This document shows, piece by piece, positions 1,524-59,258 of a stretch of 59,899 nucleotides of DNA (position 1 is its first letter; every line of letters begins with the position of its first letter). Location: positions 1-59,899 of the forward strand of contig NZ_CANLTR010000019.1 in NCBI RefSeq assembly GCF_947494055.1, in the 5' to 3' direction. The DNA comes from an uncultured Jannaschia sp. (lineage in GTDB: Bacteria; Pseudomonadota; Alphaproteobacteria; Rhodobacterales; Rhodobacteraceae). The position numbers and the translations under genes are program-made. The notes beneath the pieces were generated by a model, which worked only from the letters and a program-made list of their open reading frames with translations, was not told the DNA's origin and did not search any database.

Positions 1524-2498
1524 ATGTCTGACATCATGCGCACTCACACCATCGTCGAAGGTCTTCGTGCCCTCCACTTCCCCTCGGACCGGGACGGCGA
1601 GATGACCGCCCATCTCGACCGGCTATTCGAACGGGACGCCGAGGGCGCTCCCATCCCCGTCCCGCTGCGGTTCGGGCGAACCCGGGAGACGCGCGCGATC
1701 TTGTATGTCGCCGATCCGGGGGACGGAAAGACGCATTCCGTACACCGTGGGCTCTTCAAGTATCCCGCGCTCGTGGAGCGGCCGGATGGCTCGCTGCCCT
1801 GGATTTTTGCGACCGTTCCAAGCCCCGCTTCCCTGAAGTCGATGGTCTACGCGCTGCTCAAGGCTTCCGGATACCCGATCGAGACCTCCCGTCGTTCGAT
1901 CTGGGAACTCGTCGATATTCTGCGTGATCGACTCCATGACTTCGGCCAATGCCTGATCTGGATCGACGAGGGGCACGATCTCTTCTGCGCAGACCGTGAT
2001 CTCATCCTGCGGTTTCTGAAGGCGCTCATGCAAGGCGACGAGGCGGTTATCGTCGTAATGTCAGGTACCAACAAGCTCGACGAGGTGATCCGAAGCGATC
2101 CGCAGGTCCAGCGCCGCTTCTCGGTCATCCGGCCCCGGGCGGTGACCGCCCATATCGACGGTCCGGACTTCACCGATCGGATCGCCGAATGTTGCAGACG
2201 GGCCGGGCTGAGGCCGCCTTCCGAACCGGATCTCGTATCCCGTCTCTTTCATGCGGCTCGCTATCGTTTCGGCCGCGTTATCGAGATGACCATCGACGCG
2301 ATCGAGCAGGCCCTGCTGGCAGAGGCCGACGGTCTCGAGGTATGGCACTACGCGCTTGTCTGGGGGATGCAGGAGGGTCCGGAAGCCGAGCGCAATGTAT
2401 TCCTCGTCGGCAATTGGAAAAGTATCGAGACGGACCCGATCGAGATCGAACGGCCCCGTCGCCGGCACCGGGCTGCCTCGCGTACGGGAGGTCGCTGA
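1524..2498 (+). CDS. tniB: TniB/TnsC-like AAA ATPase of the transposon
   Basis: The product is 324 residues if translation starts at the ATG at 1524, which has GGAGA seven bases upstream. The Walker A motif is in VADPGDGKTHS, the Walker B motif is in CLIWIDEGHDL, and a sensor-like VVMSGTNKLDEV follows. TniB/TnsC proteins are ATP-dependent regulators that link target choice to the transposase. An upstream in-frame extension to 1290 crosses the GC-rich hairpin and looks non-coding. The gene lies between tniA and tniQ. Its stop TGA is one base from the tniQ ATG, so tniB and tniQ are probably translationally coupled. Confidence 0.88.
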   Translation: MSDIMRTHTIVEGLRALHFPSDRDGEMTAHLDRLFERDAEGAPIPVPLRFGRTRETRAILYVADPGDGKTHSVHRGLFKYPALVERPDGSLPWIFATVPSPASLKSMVYALLKASGYPIETSRRSIWELVDILRDRLHDFGQCLIWIDEGHDLFCADRDLILRFLKALMQGDEAVIVVMSGTNKLDEVIRSDPQVQRRFSVIRPRAVTAHIDGPDFTDRIAECCRRAGLRPPSEPDLVSRLFHAARYRFGRVIEMTIDAIEQALLAEADGLEVWHYALVWGMQEGPEAERNVFLVGNWKSIETDPIEIERPRRRHRAASRTGGR

Positions 2499-2499
2499 C

Positions 2500-4329
2500 A
2501 TGACGAAGCTCATGCCTAACCTTCCCTTTGACGACGACGAAACCCCCCTATCCTGGGCCTCCCGGATGGCGGAACTGCATACGCATGGCAGGATCAACTC
2601 ATTTCTCACCGAGATCGGGATCTCCGTGGGCGATCTTGCGGTCGGCGTACGATCGGCTGTTATGGCTCTCTGTAAAATCACGGGTCAGGATCCCGCACCG
2701 GTTCTGCGCAACACCGTGACCCATACCGATGCGCGGACGCGGACCTTCCGTGATCAGAGCTTCGAAGCCGACCTGACGGCGTCGCATCCCAAGTTCTGCG
2801 CGCAGTGTCTCGTGGAAGACGAGGTTGGTGTCGATCATCCCCACATCGGACGCAGACACCGCCTGCTTTGGACCTTCGCTCCGGTCCGAAGCTGCGTTCG
2901 GCACGAGGTTCGCCTTTACGAGAGACCATCGTCAAGCGGTGGTTCGGCGCCTTTGGACATGCGCGAAGTGGTTCCGGAAACGGGACTTGCTCTTGCAGAT
3001 CTGGCCAATGCCGCGGAGCCTGCCGTACCGACCGGGCTGGAACGCTACCTCATGGGACGCTTCGACGGGATGTTGGGGCCGGTCTGGCTTGACGGGCAAC
3101 CCGTCGATCTGGCCGTCAAGTCGACCGAAATTCTTGGGGCAAGGCTTCTGTTCGGCCCGGAGAAGACGCTAAGGCAAATGTCCGAAGATGACTGGCGTCG
3201 CGCGGGCGCTGTCGGCTGGAATGCTGTCTCGGAGGGCACTGACGGCCCTCTCAACGTCCTTGACGAGATGCTCGATGAGCACGGTCTGCAATGCGCCTCC
3301 AGGTTCCGGCCCGTGCATGCTCTGGGCATGATGGCATCTTGGCTACAATACCGGGGGCGGCAGGACGAACCGGGCGCGATGCATGATATGGTCTTCGAGA
3401 AGGTTCGGCAACGCTTCCCCTTCAAGCCCGGCCAGACCTTGTTCGGCAGGAAGATCGACTCCCCGTGTCTCGTCCGGATCAGTGACGCGACCGCAGGCCT
3501 TATCACCGACGTGGAGGGTTACGCACACGAACTGCATCGCCGAGGGCTTCTAAGGGACCATCAACGCATGCTGCCGCCCAATCGTCAGGTCGTACACTAC
3601 CGCGGTGCCATCGACGTCCGAGATTTGGTCATGCGGGCTGTCCGACCGGAGCACGCCGCCCAATGGCTTGGAACGGATACGAGGCTGATCAATGCTCTGA
3701 TGACGGCAGGCTTTCTGGGGGCGTTCGATGTAACGCTGGGCGTCCGGGCGTCCGATCGATCCTTCGTGGACAAGAGCGACCTTCAGGCTTTGTTGATGCT
3801 GATCGCGTCATTCCCGATCGCTCGAGAGAGCCAGACCGGTCTTGTCGATCCATTCGTGCCCACATGGACGGGGGCGGCGGACCTGGTTTCCCTCGTTTCG
3901 AGCATCCTGGGTGATCCAGATCGAACCGTATTTCGGCTGAATGGCCGAGCCGCGATCGATCGGGTCCGCACAAGGGTCGTCGATCAGGTCAACGATTGGC
4001 GTCCGGGCGGGGGTATGGCCGGGACAGTCGCGCTTTACATGCTCGGGCTCTCCGCCAAGTCCGATCCACGTGAGATCGCCTGGCCGGAGGAGTTTCCATG
4101 GTCCGCGACTGACGGAGATCTCGGCGACGTCTGGGTCGAGCCATGGGAGATGGAAATGATACGCAAGACGTTCGTCCTGCCTGATCGACTTGCTTCGGAA
4201 CTGGGGTCATCGCCGACGGCGATCGAGCATCGCATCAGCGAGGCCGGCGTAACGCCCGAGGTCGGTCTAGAATCCTTGCAGGCACCGCTCTATCGAAGGA
4301 CAGATTTACCCGAAGGCCTTCGAACCTGA
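2500..4329 (+). CDS. tniQ: TniQ/TnsD-family target-selection protein
   Basis: The product is 609 residues. The start at 2500 follows the tniB stop by one base. The N-terminal part has the TniQ pattern: an early LPF and ETPLSWASRMAELH segment, then a zinc-finger-like FCAQCLVEDE near residue 100, a conserved Trp, and VRSCVRHEVRL. Together these give the CxxC and CxxH ligand pairs of the family. The long C-terminal part is probably the helical, DNA-reading region typical of TnsD-sized members. Such proteins choose the insertion site and recruit the ATPase and transposase. No resolvase gene, TnsA-like endonuclease or Cas gene follows. A terminator lies 26 bases downstream. Confidence 0.85.
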   Translation: MTKLMPNLPFDDDETPLSWASRMAELHTHGRINSFLTEIGISVGDLAVGVRSAVMALCKITGQDPAPVLRNTVTHTDARTRTFRDQSFEADLTASHPKFCAQCLVEDEVGVDHPHIGRRHRLLWTFAPVRSCVRHEVRLYERPSSSGGSAPLDMREVVPETGLALADLANAAEPAVPTGLERYLMGRFDGMLGPVWLDGQPVDLAVKSTEILGARLLFGPEKTLRQMSEDDWRRAGAVGWNAVSEGTDGPLNVLDEMLDEHGLQCASRFRPVHALGMMASWLQYRGRQDEPGAMHDMVFEKVRQRFPFKPGQTLFGRKIDSPCLVRISDATAGLITDVEGYAHELHRRGLLRDHQRMLPPNRQVVHYRGAIDVRDLVMRAVRPEHAAQWLGTDTRLINALMTAGFLGAFDVTLGVRASDRSFVDKSDLQALLMLIASFPIARESQTGLVDPFVPTWTGAADLVSLVSSILGDPDRTVFRLNGRAAIDRVRTRVVDQVNDWRPGGGMAGTVALYMLGLSAKSDPREIAWPEEFPWSATDGDLGDVWVEPWEMEMIRKTFVLPDRLASELGSSPTAIEHRISEAGVTPEVGLESLQAPLYRRTDLPEGLRT

Positions 4330-16268: not shown

Positions 16269-16543
16269 TCGGCCAAAGCCTCGCCGCGGACCGGGTCGAA
16301 GCTCTCCGGCACGACCGTGGTGATCCGGAAGATTTCGAACCGTGGCGGGCCACTTCTAGCAACGGCGCGGCTGACCCCCGCCTCGCTGCCGCAGCCTTCG
16401 GCAGTGTCGAGGCGGCGGCAGTCCGGCGCCAGCGCGGTGGAGACGCCGTGACAGGCGGCGTCGCCCTCACGGTTCCAGAAGCGGGGACCGGTCCGCGGCG
16501 CGCGCTCGATGCGCCTCATTCCAGGGCTTCCGGTTCGGATCAT
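16265..16543 (-). CDS. Unrecognised 92-residue protein, coupled inside the mannoside operon
   Basis: The ATG at 16543 overlaps the stop of the Gfo/Idh/MocA gene (ATGA), and its own TGA overlaps the ATG of the TolB-like gene (ATGA). That double coupling is the main evidence that it is expressed. The product is basic at the N-terminus (MIRTGSPGMRRIERAPRTG). It has four Cys residues (one each in DAACHG, PDCRR and EGCGSEAG, counting the second DAACHG neighbour as uncertain) and ends in FEIFRITTVVPESFDPVRG. No signal peptide or membrane helix is visible and I recognise no family. It could alternatively be a chance frame bridging a 270-base gap. Confidence 0.45.
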   Translation of the reverse strand: MIRTGSPGMRRIERAPRTGPRFWNREGDAACHGVSTALAPDCRRLDTAEGCGSEAGVSRAVARSGPPRFEIFRITTVVPESFDPVRGEALAE

Positions 16544-17703
16544 GCGGCGACGGCCCCTTCCGGCATCAGGCGGCGCGCGGCGGCGGCGTCGAACGGCGCC
16601 GGACGCGCGCAGGTCGTGGTCATCTCGATGAACCGGCCCTCCTCGCCCGAGCGCAGGATCGCCTCCAGCACCTCGGTCACGTGGAGCGCCATCTCCAACG
16701 CGCAGCGATGCGGCCCGCCCGTCTGGATCGCCCTTGCCATGTCGGCCAGCCCCACACTCCGGTAATCGGCGCGCGGACGCCCGTCGCGGGTGGTGCGGTT
16801 CACGACCGAGAGCGGATGGTCGGCGGCCTCGAAGCTCCGGACGTCCTGATCGGAGCCCACGATCTCGGTCGTGCCGCCGAAAAAGTTCGGGTCCTGCGGC
16901 AGCAACGTGCCCTCGGTCCCGTAGAGCTCGACGTTGCGATGGCCGTGATGGGGCACGTCCCACGAGGCGGAGAAGGTGATCTGCGCGCCGGAGGCGAAGT
17001 CGAGGAGCGCGTGGGCCGTGGTCGGCGTCTCCACCGGGATCGTCTCGCCCGTGCGGGGCGCCGTGGCGATGACGCGCGTGTCCCGGGCCATGCCGGTCAT
17101 CGCGGCGACGCGGCGCACCGGCCCGATCAGGTTGACGAGCTGCGTGACGTAATACGGCCCCAGGTCGAGGACCGGGCCGCCGCCCTCGAGAAAGAAGAAG
17201 TCCGGGTTCGGATGCCACATCTCCATGCCGGCCGACATGACGTGGCAGGTGCCGTGGGTGATCCGCCCGACCGCGCCCGCATCGAGCAGGCGGCGCGATT
17301 CCTGATGGCTGGCGCCGAGGAACGTGTCGGGCGCGCAGCCGATCCGCCGCCCAACCACCTCCGCCGCGCGGGCGAGCCCCTTCGCGTCCGCGAGCGTCAG
17401 CGCGAGCGGTTTCTCGGAATAGGCGTGCTTGCCCGCCGCGAGGATCGCGCGGGTGACCTCCGCATGGGCCGCGGGCACGGTGAGGTTGACGACGATGTCG
17501 ATATCCTGCGCGGCGAGCAGGCCCTCGACCGTTTCCGTGCGCAGGCCGAACTCGGCGGCGCGCGCCTCGGCCCGGGACGCGTCGAGATCGGCGACGGCCC
17601 GCATCTCGATCCCCGCGAAGAGCGCGGCGCGGGCGAGGTAGCTCTCGGAGATGTTGCCGCAACCGATGAGGCCGACGCCGAGCGGGGCGGGGGCGGCGCT
17701 CAT
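16540..17703 (-). CDS. Gfo/Idh/MocA-family NAD(P)-dependent oxidoreductase
   Basis: The product is 387 residues. The Rossmann motif GVGLIGCGNISESY is at the N-terminus, followed by the family's EKP motif (SEKPLALTLADAK) and a C-terminal substrate-binding sheet domain with GGGPVLDLGPYYV. Enzymes of this family oxidise or reduce sugars and inositols, or act on glycosides through a 3-keto intermediate. Its ATG overlaps the isomerase stop (ATGA). It probably works with the isomerase on a sugar released by the mannosidase. Confidence 0.9.
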   Translation of the reverse strand: MSAAPAPLGVGLIGCGNISESYLARAALFAGIEMRAVADLDASRAEARAAEFGLRTETVEGLLAAQDIDIVVNLTVPAAHAEVTRAILAAGKHAYSEKPLALTLADAKGLARAAEVVGRRIGCAPDTFLGASHQESRRLLDAGAVGRITHGTCHVMSAGMEMWHPNPDFFFLEGGGPVLDLGPYYVTQLVNLIGPVRRVAAMTGMARDTRVIATAPRTGETIPVETPTTAHALLDFASGAQITFSASWDVPHHGHRNVELYGTEGTLLPQDPNFFGGTTEIVGSDQDVRSFEAADHPLSVVNRTTRDGRPRADYRSVGLADMARAIQTGGPHRCALEMALHVTEVLEAILRSGEEGRFIEMTTTCARPAPFDAAAARRLMPEGAVAA

Positions 17704-18458
17704 GCCGGCACCCCGTCGAGCGCGCGGGCCGCCGCGAGCCCCGCCTCGGCGAAGCGTCGGTCGTCGGAAGGGTTGTCGTGCTCCATCACCCAGTGACGGA
17801 CATCCACGTCGGCGAGCGCGCGGGTGAGCGTGGGCCAGTCCATCGTGCCGGTGCCGGGATCGGCCCAGCCATCCTCGTCCGCCTTCTCGCCCGCAGGCGC
17901 GATGTCCTTGACGTGAACGGCGGAGATGCGGTCGCCGTGGCGGGCGATCCAGTCCATCGGGTCGGCGCCGGCGCGAACGGCCCAGGCCAAGTCGAACTGC
18001 CAGTCGAGCCGCGTTCCGCCCAGGAGGTGATCCATCGGCACGGTGCCGTCCGGCAGCGCGGCGAACTCGAAATCGTGGTTATGCCAGCCCGCCCGCAGGC
18101 CGGCGGCCTCGATGCCCCGTGCCGCGGCGGCGAGGCGCTCGGCGAAGGCGCGCCAGCCCGCGGGGTCCGAGGGCCGCTCGGCGGGCGGGATGCTCGGCAC
18201 GAACGCCGTCTCGACGCCCATCTCGGCCAGATGTGCGGGCAGGTCCGGCTCCGCCTCGAGCGTGGCCAGCCCGACATGCGCCGTGGGCATCGCAAGCCCG
18301 GTCTCGTGCAGGCCGGCGGCCAGCCCGGCGCGGGCCCCGGCATCGGCGAAGAGCGCGCCGTAGCCCTCGACCGCCGGATAGCCGAGATCGGCCAGCATCC
18401 GCAGCGTCTCCGGCAACGGGCCGAACTTGCGGGACGAATAGAGCTGATAGGAGATCAT
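17700..18458 (-). CDS. Sugar phosphate isomerase/epimerase (xylose isomerase-like TIM barrel)
   Basis: The product is 252 residues with the AP-endonuclease-2/xylose-isomerase barrel pattern: YPAVEGYGALF, the metal-site motifs GWHNHDFEF and LDWQFDLAWAV, AVHVKDIAP, and the terminal HWVMEHDNPSDD. There is no signal peptide, so it is cytosolic. The ATG overlaps the mannosidase stop (ATGA). A clear relative with secretion and anchoring signals occurs at 57.7 kb. It is likely to isomerise or epimerise a keto-sugar together with the adjacent oxidoreductase. Confidence 0.88.
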   Translation of the reverse strand: MISYQLYSSRKFGPLPETLRMLADLGYPAVEGYGALFADAGARAGLAAGLHETGLAMPTAHVGLATLEAEPDLPAHLAEMGVETAFVPSIPPAERPSDPAGWRAFAERLAAAARGIEAAGLRAGWHNHDFEFAALPDGTVPMDHLLGGTRLDWQFDLAWAVRAGADPMDWIARHGDRISAVHVKDIAPAGEKADEDGWADPGTGTMDWPTLTRALADVDVRHWVMEHDNPSDDRRFAEAGLAAARALDGVPA

Positions 18459-52904: not shown

Positions 52905-53885
52905 ATGACACGTGCGCTCGCTCCGGACGCGCTCGGGCCGACGATCTGCGCCGGCGAGATCCTGGTTGAGCTCGTCGCCAGCCGTCCCGGCGCGGGCTTC
53001 CGGGAGGTTCTGGACCTGACCGGGCCCTATCCGAGCGGTGCGCCGGCCATCTTCATTGACCAATGCGCCCGGCTCGGCGGGCAGGCCGCGATGATCGGCG
53101 CGGTCGGCGACGACGATTTCGGCGCGGTCAATCTCGACCGCCTGCGTCAGGACGGCGCCGACCTGAGTGGCGTCGCCGTGGATCCGGACCGCCCCACCGG
53201 CTCCGCATTCGTGCGCTACCGCCCGGACGGCGCGCGCGACTTCGTCTACAACATCGCCCATTCCGCCGCCGCCCGCTTCGGCTGGTCCGACGCGGTCGAG
53301 GCGCTGGTCCGCCGCGCGGGGCACCTGCACGTCATGGGCACCGCCCTGTCGATGCAAGCGGCGCGCGATGTCATCGTCCGTGCGGCGGACATCGTCCTCG
53401 GGCGGGGCGGGTCGCTCTCCGTCGATCCGAACCTCCGCAAGGAAATCGCCCACGACGCGGAAACGGAGGCGCTCTTCGCGGACCTCGTCGATCGCGCCGC
53501 GCTCTGTCTGCCCTCGGGCGAGGAGCTTTCCCGGGCCGCCGGAATCGCGATGCCCGAGGCGGCGGTCGCGGCGCTGCACGCGCGCGGGGTGGGCGAGGTC
53601 GTGCTGAAACGCGGCGCGGGGGGCGCCACGTTGTTCCTGCCGGGCGGCATCCGCCACGACGCCGCGGCCTTCGCCGTCCCGGAGGTCGATCCGACCGGCG
53701 CGGGAGATTGCTTCGGCGCGGCCTACCTGACCTGCCGGCGCCTCGGGATGGCGCCGAAGCGCGCGCTCGACTATGCCTGCGCCGCGGGCGCGTGCAACGT
53801 CGCCGTTCGCGGGCCGATGGAGGGTGCGGCCACCCGCGCGGAGCTCGACGCCTTCATCGCCGGTACCCCGAGGAGGGCTTCGTGA
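52905..53885 (+). CDS. PfkB-family sugar kinase, probable tagatose/ketohexose kinase
   Basis: The product is 326 residues from the ATG at 52905, with GGAGG upstream. PfkB motifs: GGQAAMIGAVGDDDFGAV near the N-terminus and the catalytic DPTGAGDCFGAAYL near residue 265. The substrate-side YPSGAPAIFIDQCARLGG is also present. It should phosphorylate a ketose, most likely D-tagatose to the 6-phosphate given the adjacent GatZ-like gene. That assignment follows the published Agrobacterium altritol/galactitol pathway, in which a PF00294 kinase and a PF08013 epimerase act in sequence. Its stop overlaps the next start (GTGA). Confidence 0.85.
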   Translation: MTRALAPDALGPTICAGEILVELVASRPGAGFREVLDLTGPYPSGAPAIFIDQCARLGGQAAMIGAVGDDDFGAVNLDRLRQDGADLSGVAVDPDRPTGSAFVRYRPDGARDFVYNIAHSAAARFGWSDAVEALVRRAGHLHVMGTALSMQAARDVIVRAADIVLGRGGSLSVDPNLRKEIAHDAETEALFADLVDRAALCLPSGEELSRAAGIAMPEAAVAALHARGVGEVVLKRGAGGATLFLPGGIRHDAAAFAVPEVDPTGAGDCFGAAYLTCRRLGMAPKRALDYACAAGACNVAVRGPMEGAATRAELDAFIAGTPRRAS

Positions 53886-55150
53886 CATTGCTCGACGATT
53901 TCGCACGCCACCGCCGCGACGGCCGCCCGAGGGGTATCACCTCGGTCTGCTCGGCCCATCCGCTCGTCCTGCGCGCGGCGCTTCGGCACGGACGGGAGAG
54001 CGAGGCGACGGTGCTGATCGAGGCGACCTGCAACCAAGTGAACCACGAGGGCGGCTATACCGGGATGCGCCCCGCCGACTTCGCCCGCCTGGTGCGCGAG
54101 ATCGCCGCCCAAGAGGACTGCCCGGAGGAGCGGATTGTCCTTGGCGGCGACCATCTCGGCCCGAATCCCTGGCGCGACCGGTCGGCCGAGGAAGCGATGG
54201 CGGAGGCCGTGCGGATGGTGGAGGCCTATGTCGCGGCGGGCTTCCGCAAGATCCATCTCGACGCTTCCATGGGCTGCGCCGGGGAGCCTGCGGCGCTCGA
54301 CGACGAGACGACCGCGATCCGGGCCGCCCGCCTTGCGCGGGCCGCGGAGGATGCCGTCACCGAGGACGGTTCCCCGCGCCCGGTCTACGTGATCGGGACC
54401 GAGGTGCCGCCGCCCGGGGGCGCGGACCACGCGCTCGACAGCGTCGCGGTCACCGCGCCGGAGGCCGCACGGCGCACCATCGCCGTCCACCGGGCACGCT
54501 TCGCGGCCGAGGGGCTGGGGGCGGCGATGGCGCGCGTCGTCGCGGTGGTCGTGCAGCCGGGCGTCGAGTTCGGCAACCGCAACGTCGTTCCCTACGACCC
54601 GGACGCGGCGCGGGGGCTCGCCCGGGTCCTCGACGAGGAACCCGGCTTCGTCTTCGAGGCCCACTCGACCGATTACCAGGGGACCGGACCGCTCGCGCGC
54701 CTCGTGGCGGACGGGTTCGCGATCCTGAAGGTGGGACCGGAGCTGACCTTCGCCCTGCGCGAGGCGCTCTACGCGCTCGACCTGATCGCGTCGGACCTCC
54801 TGCCCGGTTACGGCGACCGGCCGTTGATGCGCGCGATGGAGGCGCTGATGACGTCCGCGCCGGAACATTGGTCGCGGCATTACGGGGAAGCCGCCGAGGA
54901 CGCCTGGATGCGGCACTATTCGCTGTCGGACCGCATCCGCTACTACTGGGCCCGTCCCGAGGCCGAAGCCGCCGTCGAACGTCTCGTCGCGGCTTTGGAC
55001 GGACGACACGTGCCGCGCCCGCTCCTGTGGCAGCATCTGCCGGGCGCGGCGCACCTCGCCGACCGCCCGTTCGACGCGGAGGCCGTCGTCCTGAATCACG
55101 TTGCAGACCGGCTCGACGCGTATCTCGCGGCCTGTCGCCCGGCGGGGTAG
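53882..55150 (+). CDS. GatZ/KbaZ-family protein, probable D-tagatose 6-phosphate 4-epimerase
   Basis: The product is 422 residues from a GTG at 53882. Family signatures (PF08013): SVCSAHPLVLRAAL, EATCNQVNHEGGYTGMRP, GGDHLGPNPWRD, HLDASMGCAG and FEAHSTDYQ. In E. coli GatZ and KbaZ support a separate tagatose-bisphosphate aldolase (GatY/KbaY). No such aldolase gene is in this window. In Agrobacterium a member of this family was shown to be an epimerase that turns D-tagatose 6-phosphate into D-fructose 6-phosphate, and the kinase neighbour supports the same role here. Confidence 0.85.
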   Translation: MTLLDDFARHRRDGRPRGITSVCSAHPLVLRAALRHGRESEATVLIEATCNQVNHEGGYTGMRPADFARLVREIAAQEDCPEERIVLGGDHLGPNPWRDRSAEEAMAEAVRMVEAYVAAGFRKIHLDASMGCAGEPAALDDETTAIRAARLARAAEDAVTEDGSPRPVYVIGTEVPPPGGADHALDSVAVTAPEAARRTIAVHRARFAAEGLGAAMARVVAVVVQPGVEFGNRNVVPYDPDAARGLARVLDEEPGFVFEAHSTDYQGTGPLARLVADGFAILKVGPELTFALREALYALDLIASDLLPGYGDRPLMRAMEALMTSAPEHWSRHYGEAAEDAWMRHYSLSDRIRYYWARPEAEAAVERLVAALDGRHVPRPLLWQHLPGAAHLADRPFDAEAVVLNHVADRLDAYLAACRPAG

Positions 55151-57254: not shown

Positions 57255-57740
57255 GGCGGGGTCCTTTCGGCTGGCGCCACCGTTCGCATGCCGGCCGACG
57301 CTTCGCCATCCCCAAGGTTGGGTATGCCCGTCGTTCAGAATGTTCGAACTTTCATGACGCGGCCTTCGCCCGGAACGATACCGGATTGTCGGCGAGGATC
57401 GCCCGCAGCTCGACCAGCGCCTGAGGGCGGTAGATGTTGAGCAGCACGACGCAGATGCGGGCCAAGCAAGAAGCCTGTCGGTCCACGACAGTGCCACAGA
57501 ACTTGCGGGCCGGCCGCATTGTTGGCAGCAATGGGAATACCGGCCTCGACGTGACGAAAGGTTATATAGCAAGGTTGGAGATAAGATCTGACTTCCTGCC
57601 GGGTCCGTTTCCGAATGCTCCGGCCCTTCGTCCTCGTAGACAGCCCATACCGGCGGTCGCCCGACAAGCTCGCGCAGTCGGGGTTGCCCCATGAACGAGG
57701 CAGGCAACCGGCCACACGGCCACCAACAGGGAGGATCACC
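57255..57740. other. Gap between divergent genes, with a possible coding remnant
   Basis: About 485 bases. Near 57320-57352 a GTTCAGAATGTTCGAAC sequence could be an operator for the exporter genes. On the minus strand from about 57520 to a stop at 57352, one frame reads LARICVVLLNIYRPQALVEL and then RAILADNPVSFRAKAAS, which looks like the end of a lost gene, but I cannot name it. A more AT-rich patch near 57545-57590 probably holds the promoter of the following gene. Confidence 0.4.
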
Positions 57741-58712
57741 ATGACACCACACTTCAGGACGTTTCGGCAGACAGCCATGACGGCCGCGGCCGGCATGCTC
57801 GCCGTCGCGGGGGCGAACACCGCGGCCGCCGCGACGATGGGCCCGCAGATCGCGGCGCAGACCTACTCGCTCAGGGCCTTCGGGACCCTCGAGGAGCAGA
57901 TGCGGATCATCAAGGATGCCGGCGTCGATTACGTGGAAGCCTATGGCGGCCTCGGCGCGGCGTCGGATGCCAGGGCGGTTCTCGACGCGGCGGGACTGAC
58001 GGCCATCTCCGACCATGTCGGGCTCGCGGATCTGCGTGCCGACGCGGCGAATGGCTTGGCCTCCGTGATCGCGCGGCAGCGGACGCTCGGCAACGACACT
58101 GTCGTGATGCCGTACCTCGTGCCCGACGACCGCCCCGCGGACGCGGCGGGATGGGGGGCGCTCGGCCGTGAGCTCGGCGGCTATGCCGACCGCCTCGCCG
58201 AGGAGGGACTGACATTCGGGTATCACAACCACGATTTCGACCTTGTCGCGGTGGACGGCTCGACCGGCTACGAGATCGCGATCGCGGCCGGCGGCCCCAA
58301 CCTGAAGGCGCAGGTCGACGTCGGCTGGGCGGAGCGCGCGGGGGTCGATCCGACCGCGCTGCTGCAACGGCTCGACGGCAAGGTCATTTCGATCCACGCC
58401 AAGGATCTGGCCGATCCCGCGGATCCCGGGCCGACCGCCGGAGGTAGCGAGGCGCTTGGCTTCGACTTTGCCGCCGTGGGCGAAGGTCTCGTGGACTGGG
58501 GCTCCGTTCTGCCCGCCGCGCTCGATGCGGGGGCGGAGTGGTTCATCATCGAGCACGATTTCCCGCCCGACCCGTTCGAGGTCATCTCGACCGGCCGGAC
58601 CTACCTCGCGGAGAACCTGCCCGAGCCGGCGCCGGTCCCGCTTCCGGCCGGCCTGCCGCTGCTCGCCGGCGGTCTTGTCGGCCTGGGCGTCCTCCGCCGC
58701 CGCGCGCGCTGA
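57741..58712 (+). CDS. Exported sugar-isomerase-like protein with VPLPA-CTERM anchor signal
   Basis: The product is 323 residues, with GGGAGG upstream. An N-terminal signal peptide (FRQTAMTAAAGMLAVAGANT, then AAAAT) is followed by a xylose-isomerase-like TIM barrel: AAQTYSLRAFGTLEEQMRI, FGYHNHDFDLVAV, LKAQVDVGWAERAG, VISIHAKDLADP and WFIIEHDFPPDPFE. The last 25 residues are VPLPAGLPLLAGGLVGLG plus VLRRRAR: the VPLPA motif, one hydrophobic helix and a basic cluster. That is the exosortase-type sorting signal known from Rhodobacteraceae. The metal-ligand motifs match the cytosolic relative at 17.7 kb, so the enzyme may be active outside the cytoplasm. No exosortase gene is in the window. Confidence 0.85.
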   Translation: MTPHFRTFRQTAMTAAAGMLAVAGANTAAAATMGPQIAAQTYSLRAFGTLEEQMRIIKDAGVDYVEAYGGLGAASDARAVLDAAGLTAISDHVGLADLRADAANGLASVIARQRTLGNDTVVMPYLVPDDRPADAAGWGALGRELGGYADRLAEEGLTFGYHNHDFDLVAVDGSTGYEIAIAAGGPNLKAQVDVGWAERAGVDPTALLQRLDGKVISIHAKDLADPADPGPTAGGSEALGFDFAAVGEGLVDWGSVLPAALDAGAEWFIIEHDFPPDPFEVISTGRTYLAENLPEPAPVPLPAGLPLLAGGLVGLGVLRRRAR

Positions 58713-58720
58713 GGACGATT

Positions 58721-58749
58721 GCGGGTCCGCGCCACAGGCGCGGGCCCGC
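58721..58749 (+). terminator. Strong GC hairpin after the VPLPA-CTERM gene
   Basis: GCGGGTCCGCGCC and GGCGCGGGCCCGC pair along 13 bases with one G-T wobble and a 3-4 base loop, nine bases after the stop. There is only a short T run, so termination efficiency is uncertain. Confidence 0.6.
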
Positions 58750-58842
58750 ATTCCGGGCATGACCTGCCTTCGGTACGAACGTTTCCCATGACAGCCCTGG
58801 CACCCTGTTTCGACCCGGATACGAAAGCGAAGAGGCGTTGTT

Positions 58843-59073
58843 TTGATCAGAAGTGATCGAGAACGGCCTTGCCCATATTGCGGCGGACCTGCCTGGATCG
58901 CGCATTGGCAGTTCGAGGAGGGGAAATCGCCATCCGGTTCTATCGATCGGATGTGGCTTCACACCTGCACCCCTTGCGGATTCGCGGCCTATCTTTCGGG
59001 AGACCGGGAGCGGGATTTGAAGAAAGAGAATGCTTTCGGGCCAACCCCTCCAAGGGGCGCGCCACAATCCTGA
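58843..59073 (+). CDS. Small Zn-ribbon-like protein of unknown function
   Basis: The product is 76 residues if a TTG at 58843 is the start; a weak AGAGG lies about 12 bases upstream. It has two paired-cysteine knuckles, CPYCGG near residue 10 and CTPCGF near residue 42, separated by an aromatic stretch (AWIAHWQFEEG). That spacing suits a small zinc ribbon. I do not recognise a family. It stands alone between a terminator and transposase debris, so it may be an accessory gene or a chance frame. Confidence 0.4.
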   Translation: MIRSDRERPCPYCGGPAWIAHWQFEEGKSPSGSIDRMWLHTCTPCGFAAYLSGDRERDLKKENAFGPTPPRGAPQS

Positions 59074-59258
59074 AAAGGGACGGCTTTCGATGGTCCCACG
59101 GCTTGGCCTCCCTCGGTGCACCTACATGCGGTCGGCTTGCCGTCGGCCTTGTATTCTCGACATCGAAAACCGTTGCTTGTCCTAGACGTCCAAGGCTCCA
59201 ACGCTGCTTCAACGTCCCTCGCGTCCTACATCCTGCCCCAAAGCTTGAGCTTTCTGGA

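Follow-up and report, generated by a model that had tools for sequence, protein, structure and literature searches.

A VPLPA-tailed, putatively exported relative of the 3-keto-glycoside lyase AtOGE in an uncultured Jannaschia

Introduction

AtOGE of Agrobacterium tumefaciens is a Mn-dependent beta-eliminase of 3-keto-O-glucosides of known structure (PDB 8bvk), and the available part of its description (PMC10628242) places its gene in a four-enzyme operon. In that same part the metal ligands are His132, Asp163, His189 and, weakly, Glu233, the catalytic residue is His134 (the H134A variant being inactive), and three further residues, Glu39, His66 and Glu161, hold a shifted metal in the other subunit. 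The other described system of relevance is that of PEP-CTERM proteins and EpsH, for which the available part of PMC1569441 reports that most tagged proteins come from single-gene operons and that enzyme homologues are rare among them.

The DNA considered here (the window, a stretch of 59,899 nucleotides from the genome assembly of an uncultured Jannaschia sp.) encodes near its end a protein in which these two systems appear to meet. We think it probable, at roughly 0.6, that this protein is an exported 3-keto-glycoside lyase of the AtOGE type (the OGE clade) that has become separated from its oxidase and carries a tag for the exosortase XrtD. In the open-licence PMC literature, no work was found joining an exosortase to a sugar phosphate isomerase, or joining PEP-CTERM, a TIM barrel and a signal peptide.

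Gene and Protein Layout

The VPLPA-tailed gene runs on the plus strand from an ATG at 57741 to a stop ending at 58712, with GGAGG at -11 to -7, and its product has 323 aa. The reading frame, its coordinates and the motifs YHNHDF, QVDVGW, IHAKDL and IIEHDF were all as an earlier note on this DNA had described them. Its features are given below, the residue roles being carried over by alignment from the available part of PMC10628242.

57730..57734, plus strand: Shine-Dalgarno-like GGAGG, read from the sequence
57741..57833, plus strand: signal-peptide-like N-terminus, residues 1-31 (hydropathy; low-confidence helix 8-30 in the model)
57846..58625, plus strand: AP_endonuc_2 TIM barrel, residues 36-295, AtOGE-like (PF01261, 8bvk, AlphaFold2 model)
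58224..58232, plus strand: His162 (putative metal ligand), Asn163 and His164 (putative catalytic residue), the two His aligning with AtOGE His132 and His134
58317..58319, plus strand: Asp193, aligning with AtOGE metal ligand Asp163
58395..58397, plus strand: His219, aligning with AtOGE metal ligand His189
58551..58553, plus strand: Glu271, aligning with AtOGE weak metal ligand Glu233
58635..58709, plus strand: VPLPA-CTERM sorting tail, comprising VPLPA, a hydrophobic segment and RRRAR (TIGR03370)

The match to PF01261 (AP_endonuc_2) scored 51.6 bits, and the AlphaFold2 model, built on a 29-sequence alignment that took in 28 of 41 loci, had a mean pLDDT of 87.3, with values of at least 90 at 239 of the 323 residues. 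The low values lay in residues 1-30 and in the tail, which fits their being sorting signals. The N-terminus has Arg at positions 6 and 9, a hydrophobic stretch, AAAA and a predicted cleavage site, features that, like the hydropathy, are compatible with a signal peptide, this and the membrane segment both having been assigned by eye and hydropathy. Between 57330 and 58900, a promoter and terminator scan gave no promoter-like sites and a single terminator-like one, which lies on the minus strand (expected number 0.7). The neighbouring ABC-2 transporter pair is encoded on the opposite strand, and the gene's standing alone fits the single-gene operons of tagged proteins in the available part of PMC1569441.

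Relationship to AtOGE

The closest solved structure by sequence was 8bvk itself (E=7e-69, the second-best match having E=6e-6), and in a fold search with the model 8bvk took ranks 1 and 2, the first with a TMt of 0.90, a TMq of 0.61 and 43% identity. Ranks 3 to 6 went to 3-keto-beta-glucopyranoside-1,2-lyases, and those of Alistipes and Bacteroides (8tcd, 8tcr and 8tct, whose reaction type is taken from the entry titles) are alike in fold at 19-22% identity. In a 71-row tree the window protein was grouped with AtOGE, a second Jannaschia copy (L032) and 16 other rows (19 rows, support 97/82); a separate group (97/90) took in 38 signal-less rows, most of them from Rhodobacterales. The stem of the Jannaschia pair was long, at 0.74 changes per column, in a tree that was midpoint-rooted and unresolved at the base of the 19-row group, and for which the tool warned that long branches may be misplaced; the rows did not include L058, L062, L068-L071 or a further relative at 17.7 kb of the window.

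All four AtOGE metal ligands and the catalytic His134 were identical in the window protein and L032, so that the earlier note's claim of retained metal-site motifs stands up against a characterized enzyme, at least as its site is described in the available part of PMC10628242. Seven of the eight mapped AtOGE site residues were identical in the window protein, Glu39 and His66 being kept and Glu161 being replaced by Gln, as it was in 5 of 17 alignment rows (the Jannaschia pair included). There are further differences from AtOGE: its chain as deposited (259 aa) stops 3 residues past the matched barrel and has no tail, and the beta7-alpha7 loop is longer in the Jannaschia pair. In addition, both Jannaschia copies differ at 9 of the 67 columns that do not vary among the remaining 15 rows, and this, together with the longer loop, suggests that the substrate or chemistry of the pair may have shifted.

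Predicted Export as the Usual State of the Clade

The earlier note had treated export itself as unusual for such a protein, a view that comparison with the clade did not support. A signal-like N-terminus was found in 21 of the 21 OGE-clade members other than the Jannaschia pair, each with a hydrophobic stretch and an ATG accompanied by a ribosome-site-like sequence 24-42 residues upstream of the barrel. Among 39 non-clade proteins none had a ribosome-site-preceded ATG more than 5 residues upstream of the barrel, four having upstream ATGs that lacked a ribosome-site-like sequence and one giving no ATG. The 21 were counted without the duplicates L100, L136 and L141 (equal to L076, L073 and L075) and without AtOGE, whose deposited chain begins 8 residues ahead of the match and does not show the native N-terminus; L134, L135 and L137-L140 owe their clade assignment to 45-48% identity and not to the tree, and L054-L072, mostly Bacillota gut loci, belong to neither the 21 nor the 39. 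In the clade as sampled, predicted export is thus the rule, and what is new here is the tail.

The exported relatives, which come from Paracoccus, Palleronia, Ketogulonicigenium, Xanthomonas, Halomonas and others, resemble the window protein in their signal-like N-terminus and share about 43-48% barrel identity with it (38% for Pantoea), but they lack the tail: the 21 have 3-8 residues after the barrel and none a VPLPA tail. The 28-residue tail of the window protein was common only to L032 among all proteins measured. The earlier note had offered homologues lacking both signals as grounds for doubt, and here the outcome divides, since the signal is kept in clade relatives and the tail is absent outside Jannaschia. 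The exported relatives are mostly annotated as 'sugar phosphate isomerase/epimerase', and the present comparison suggests that such signal-bearing proteins are a set better read as exported 3-keto-glycoside lyases.

The VPLPA-CTERM Tail and XrtD

Residues 299-323 of the 323 matched TIGR03370 at 26.2 bits in a protein scan, against an NCBIfam cut-off of 25.35, and the same tail scored 31.0 bits in the genome search. A simple pattern that looks for a VPLPA-type motif and a basic end shortly ahead of a stop matched a single time across all six reading frames of the window, at this gene, and TIGR03370 gave 19 matches in the whole genome, 16 of them over the cut-off. A search for the exosortase, which the earlier note had called for, produced a single XrtD match (TIGR04152) at 647.9 bits against a cut-off of 400 in this assembly of 4.75 Mb and 276 contigs, rated 100% complete. 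The claim that the protein is built for export and exosortase processing is therefore supported at the level of sequence, by the tail and by the presence of XrtD.

At the XrtD locus, 5 of 10 neighbouring ORFs scanned had matches to glycosyltransferase families, one ORF had Wzy_C just below its cut-off (31.6 against 31.7) and one had hexapeptide repeats. The tail layout, the exosortase in a polysaccharide locus and the single gene are all as in the VPLPA-CTERM/XrtD and PEP-CTERM/EpsH systems; the carrier, a lyase-type barrel, differs from the PEP-CTERM/EpsH proteins, among which enzyme homologues are rare (PMC1569441, available part). Tagged exported enzymes are nevertheless not unique to this gene in its own genome, in that 3 of the 15 other VPLPA-tailed loci scanned (of 18, leaving out L023, L025 and L027) had matches to Pfam enzyme families. 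These were a PETase-like hydrolase (L015 1489-2937), a GDSL lipase (L018 208-1119) and a second GDSL lipase (L028 589-1584), the last with a tail below the TIGR03370 cut-off. Across a genus sample of 20 genomes, XrtD was present in 15 and the VPLPA-tailed barrel gene in 2 (E<=1e-30).

Apparent Separation from the Usual Oxidase Partners

Genes for a GMC oxidoreductase, gluconate-2-dehydrogenase subunit 3 and Gfo/Idh/MocA were present at 4 of the 5 annotated clade loci opened (Palleronia, Paracoccus, Ketogulonicigenium and Xanthomonas), with DUF1080 at 3 of the 4. The fifth, from the most divergent member, Pantoea eucrina, had none of these partners within 6 kb in a plasmid gene table that is incomplete, and the plasmid loci of Halomonas, Hyphomicrobiales UR115 and Shinella, which carry no gene annotation, stand outside the five. 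PF13618 was present in all 10 clade genomes tested, each time on the contig of the OGE gene and no more than about 8 kb from it; the second Jannaschia genome (G017) had a weaker match elsewhere, at 75.5 bits, and the window's own genome had none. All 6 clade genomes searched with the Palleronia oxidase had matches, at 74-82% identity; G017 had one of 30%, and the own genome none at E<=1e-5. PF06439 (DUF1080) gave no match in either Jannaschia genome and occurred in 5 of the 6 clade genomes searched for it. The own genome gave no match to an oxidase, small subunit or DUF1080 of these kinds, and thus the VPLPA-tailed gene stands apart from the OGE pathway: the flavin oxidase of GlycDH type and its small subunit, by which membership of the four-enzyme pathway would be recognized, were not found there, which sets it apart from AtOGE and its operon as far as the available part of PMC10628242 describes them. 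In G017, a GMC oxidoreductase (the 30% match) and a Gluconate_2-dh3 subunit lie together at C16:44541-46717 (L112, L127), a possible alternative oxidase in that genome.

A Second Jannaschia Copy

The tailed form occurs only in the window and in L032 among the proteins examined. L032, from uncultured Jannaschia sp. isolate 2-243, encodes a protein that is 94% identical to the window protein, reads identical to that of locus L030 of G017, and has the same kind of tail (TIGR03370, 27.2 bits); the second Jannaschia genome also has XrtD. The two genes differ at 49 codons synonymously and 18 nonsynonymously (dN 0.029, dS 0.245), and the resulting dN/dS of about 0.12 fits purifying selection; the tail alone, with 2 synonymous and 2 nonsynonymous differences in 27 codons, is too short to judge selection. 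The likeness extends to the flanks, window 57409-59175 (about 1.77 kb) being 88.8% identical to the L032 region. Adjoining this shared block in L032 is a transposase-type ORF (HTH_21, rve; 2304-3254, minus), a hint of mobility.

A Proposed Role and Its Rivals

By analogy with AtOGE, His162, Asp193, His219 and, weakly, Glu271 would hold a divalent metal that polarises the 3-keto group of an oxidised glycoside, and His164 would take the C2 proton, so that the C1 leaving group departs and a 2-hydroxy-3-keto-glycal remains. After export, the VPLPA tail would halt in the inner membrane, where XrtD would cut the tail and pass the protein to the envelope or surface. We infer this activity and its substrate, the tail cutting and the surface location from the likenesses described above. 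The 3-keto substrate would have to be supplied by a different cellular enzyme or from the surroundings, and its source is the main weakness of the lyase reading.

Three other explanations were weighed against it. That the protein is a true sugar isomerase or epimerase, acting on extracellular free sugars or polysaccharide ends, is improbable: it matches PF01261, a family that covers many isomerases and epimerases, and isomerases and tagatose/psicose epimerases were listed lower in the fold search, but AtOGE was ahead by a wide margin in both sequence and fold. Moreover, iolE, the sole NCBIfam model of isomerase/dehydratase type to match, scored 30.6 (cut-off 290), and neither the hydroxypyruvate isomerase model nor the 5-keto-L-gluconate epimerase model gave a match at E<=10. 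It was on these NCBIfam scores, the 8bvk sequence match and the fold ranking that the isomerase reading was rejected, and the earlier note's 'sugar isomerase or epimerase' gave way to an enzyme whose nearest relative by sequence, fold and tree is AtOGE.

Drift to a new role after the loss of the oxidase (another keto-sugar, a hydratase, or mere sugar binding at the surface) is harder to dismiss, if still unlikely, for the missing partner, the long stem, the longer loop and the nine changed clade-invariant columns all point that way, whereas the catalytic His and four metal ligands kept in both copies, and the low dN/dS between them, speak for a retained function. As for the C-terminus, that it simply anchors the protein in the membrane, or is hydrophobic by chance, without being an XrtD substrate seems very improbable: the TIGR03370 margin of less than 1 bit in the protein scan would allow it, but motif, hydrophobic segment and basic end stand in order, and the tail is kept in a second genome. 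A chance tail was set aside on that recurrence, on the 16 over-cut-off tails accompanied by XrtD in the own genome, and on the single pattern match in the window.

The lyase reading thus provides a case of an OGE-type enzyme that is exosortase-tagged and separated from its oxidase, and a predicted exosortase substrate whose activity may be assayable. Its boldest extension is tentative, and on balance we doubt it: that a beta-eliminase is displayed at the cell surface by an exosortase and acts on glycosides or polysaccharide C3-oxidised outside, by neighbours or an unrelated oxidase, giving extracellular glycosidic cleavage without a hydrolase. The idea that exopolysaccharide might be acted upon comes from XrtD's place in a polysaccharide locus. 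With this gene, glycoside cleavage by oxidation and elimination at the cell surface becomes a testable proposition.

Distribution and Other Genes of the Window

In evenly drawn samples with one genome per species and at most 5 or 6 candidates scored per genome, matches at E<=1e-50 (own genome included) occurred for the phylum in 7 of 398 genomes, for the order in 9 of 390, and for the class in 1 of 385, the last being the own genome. At E<=1e-40 there were matches in 20 of 394 family genomes: the own genome, 4 with exported clade members (L073-L076) and 15 with unexported proteins (L077-L091). A pattern scan of viral contigs, which finds close relatives only, gave no match to the tailed form, and the 19 plasmid records matched at E<=1e-30 were all below 60% identity and none reached 80% coverage of the query; neither search pointed to a viral or plasmid home for the tailed form.

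The earlier note had also pointed to a relative at 17.7 kb, which proved real, and which starts right at the barrel.

17700..18458, minus strand: 252-aa relative lacking both signal and tail (36% identity across 247 columns)
16540-17703, minus strand: Gfo/Idh/MocA oxidoreductase beside this relative, 40 kb from the VPLPA-tailed gene

Together (16540-18458, minus) the unexported relative and the oxidoreductase resemble a cytosolic keto-sugar pair. Closer to the VPLPA-tailed gene, at 53822-55150 on the plus strand, the window encodes a GatZ/KbaZ-like tagatose-bisphosphate aldolase subunit (560.9 bits).
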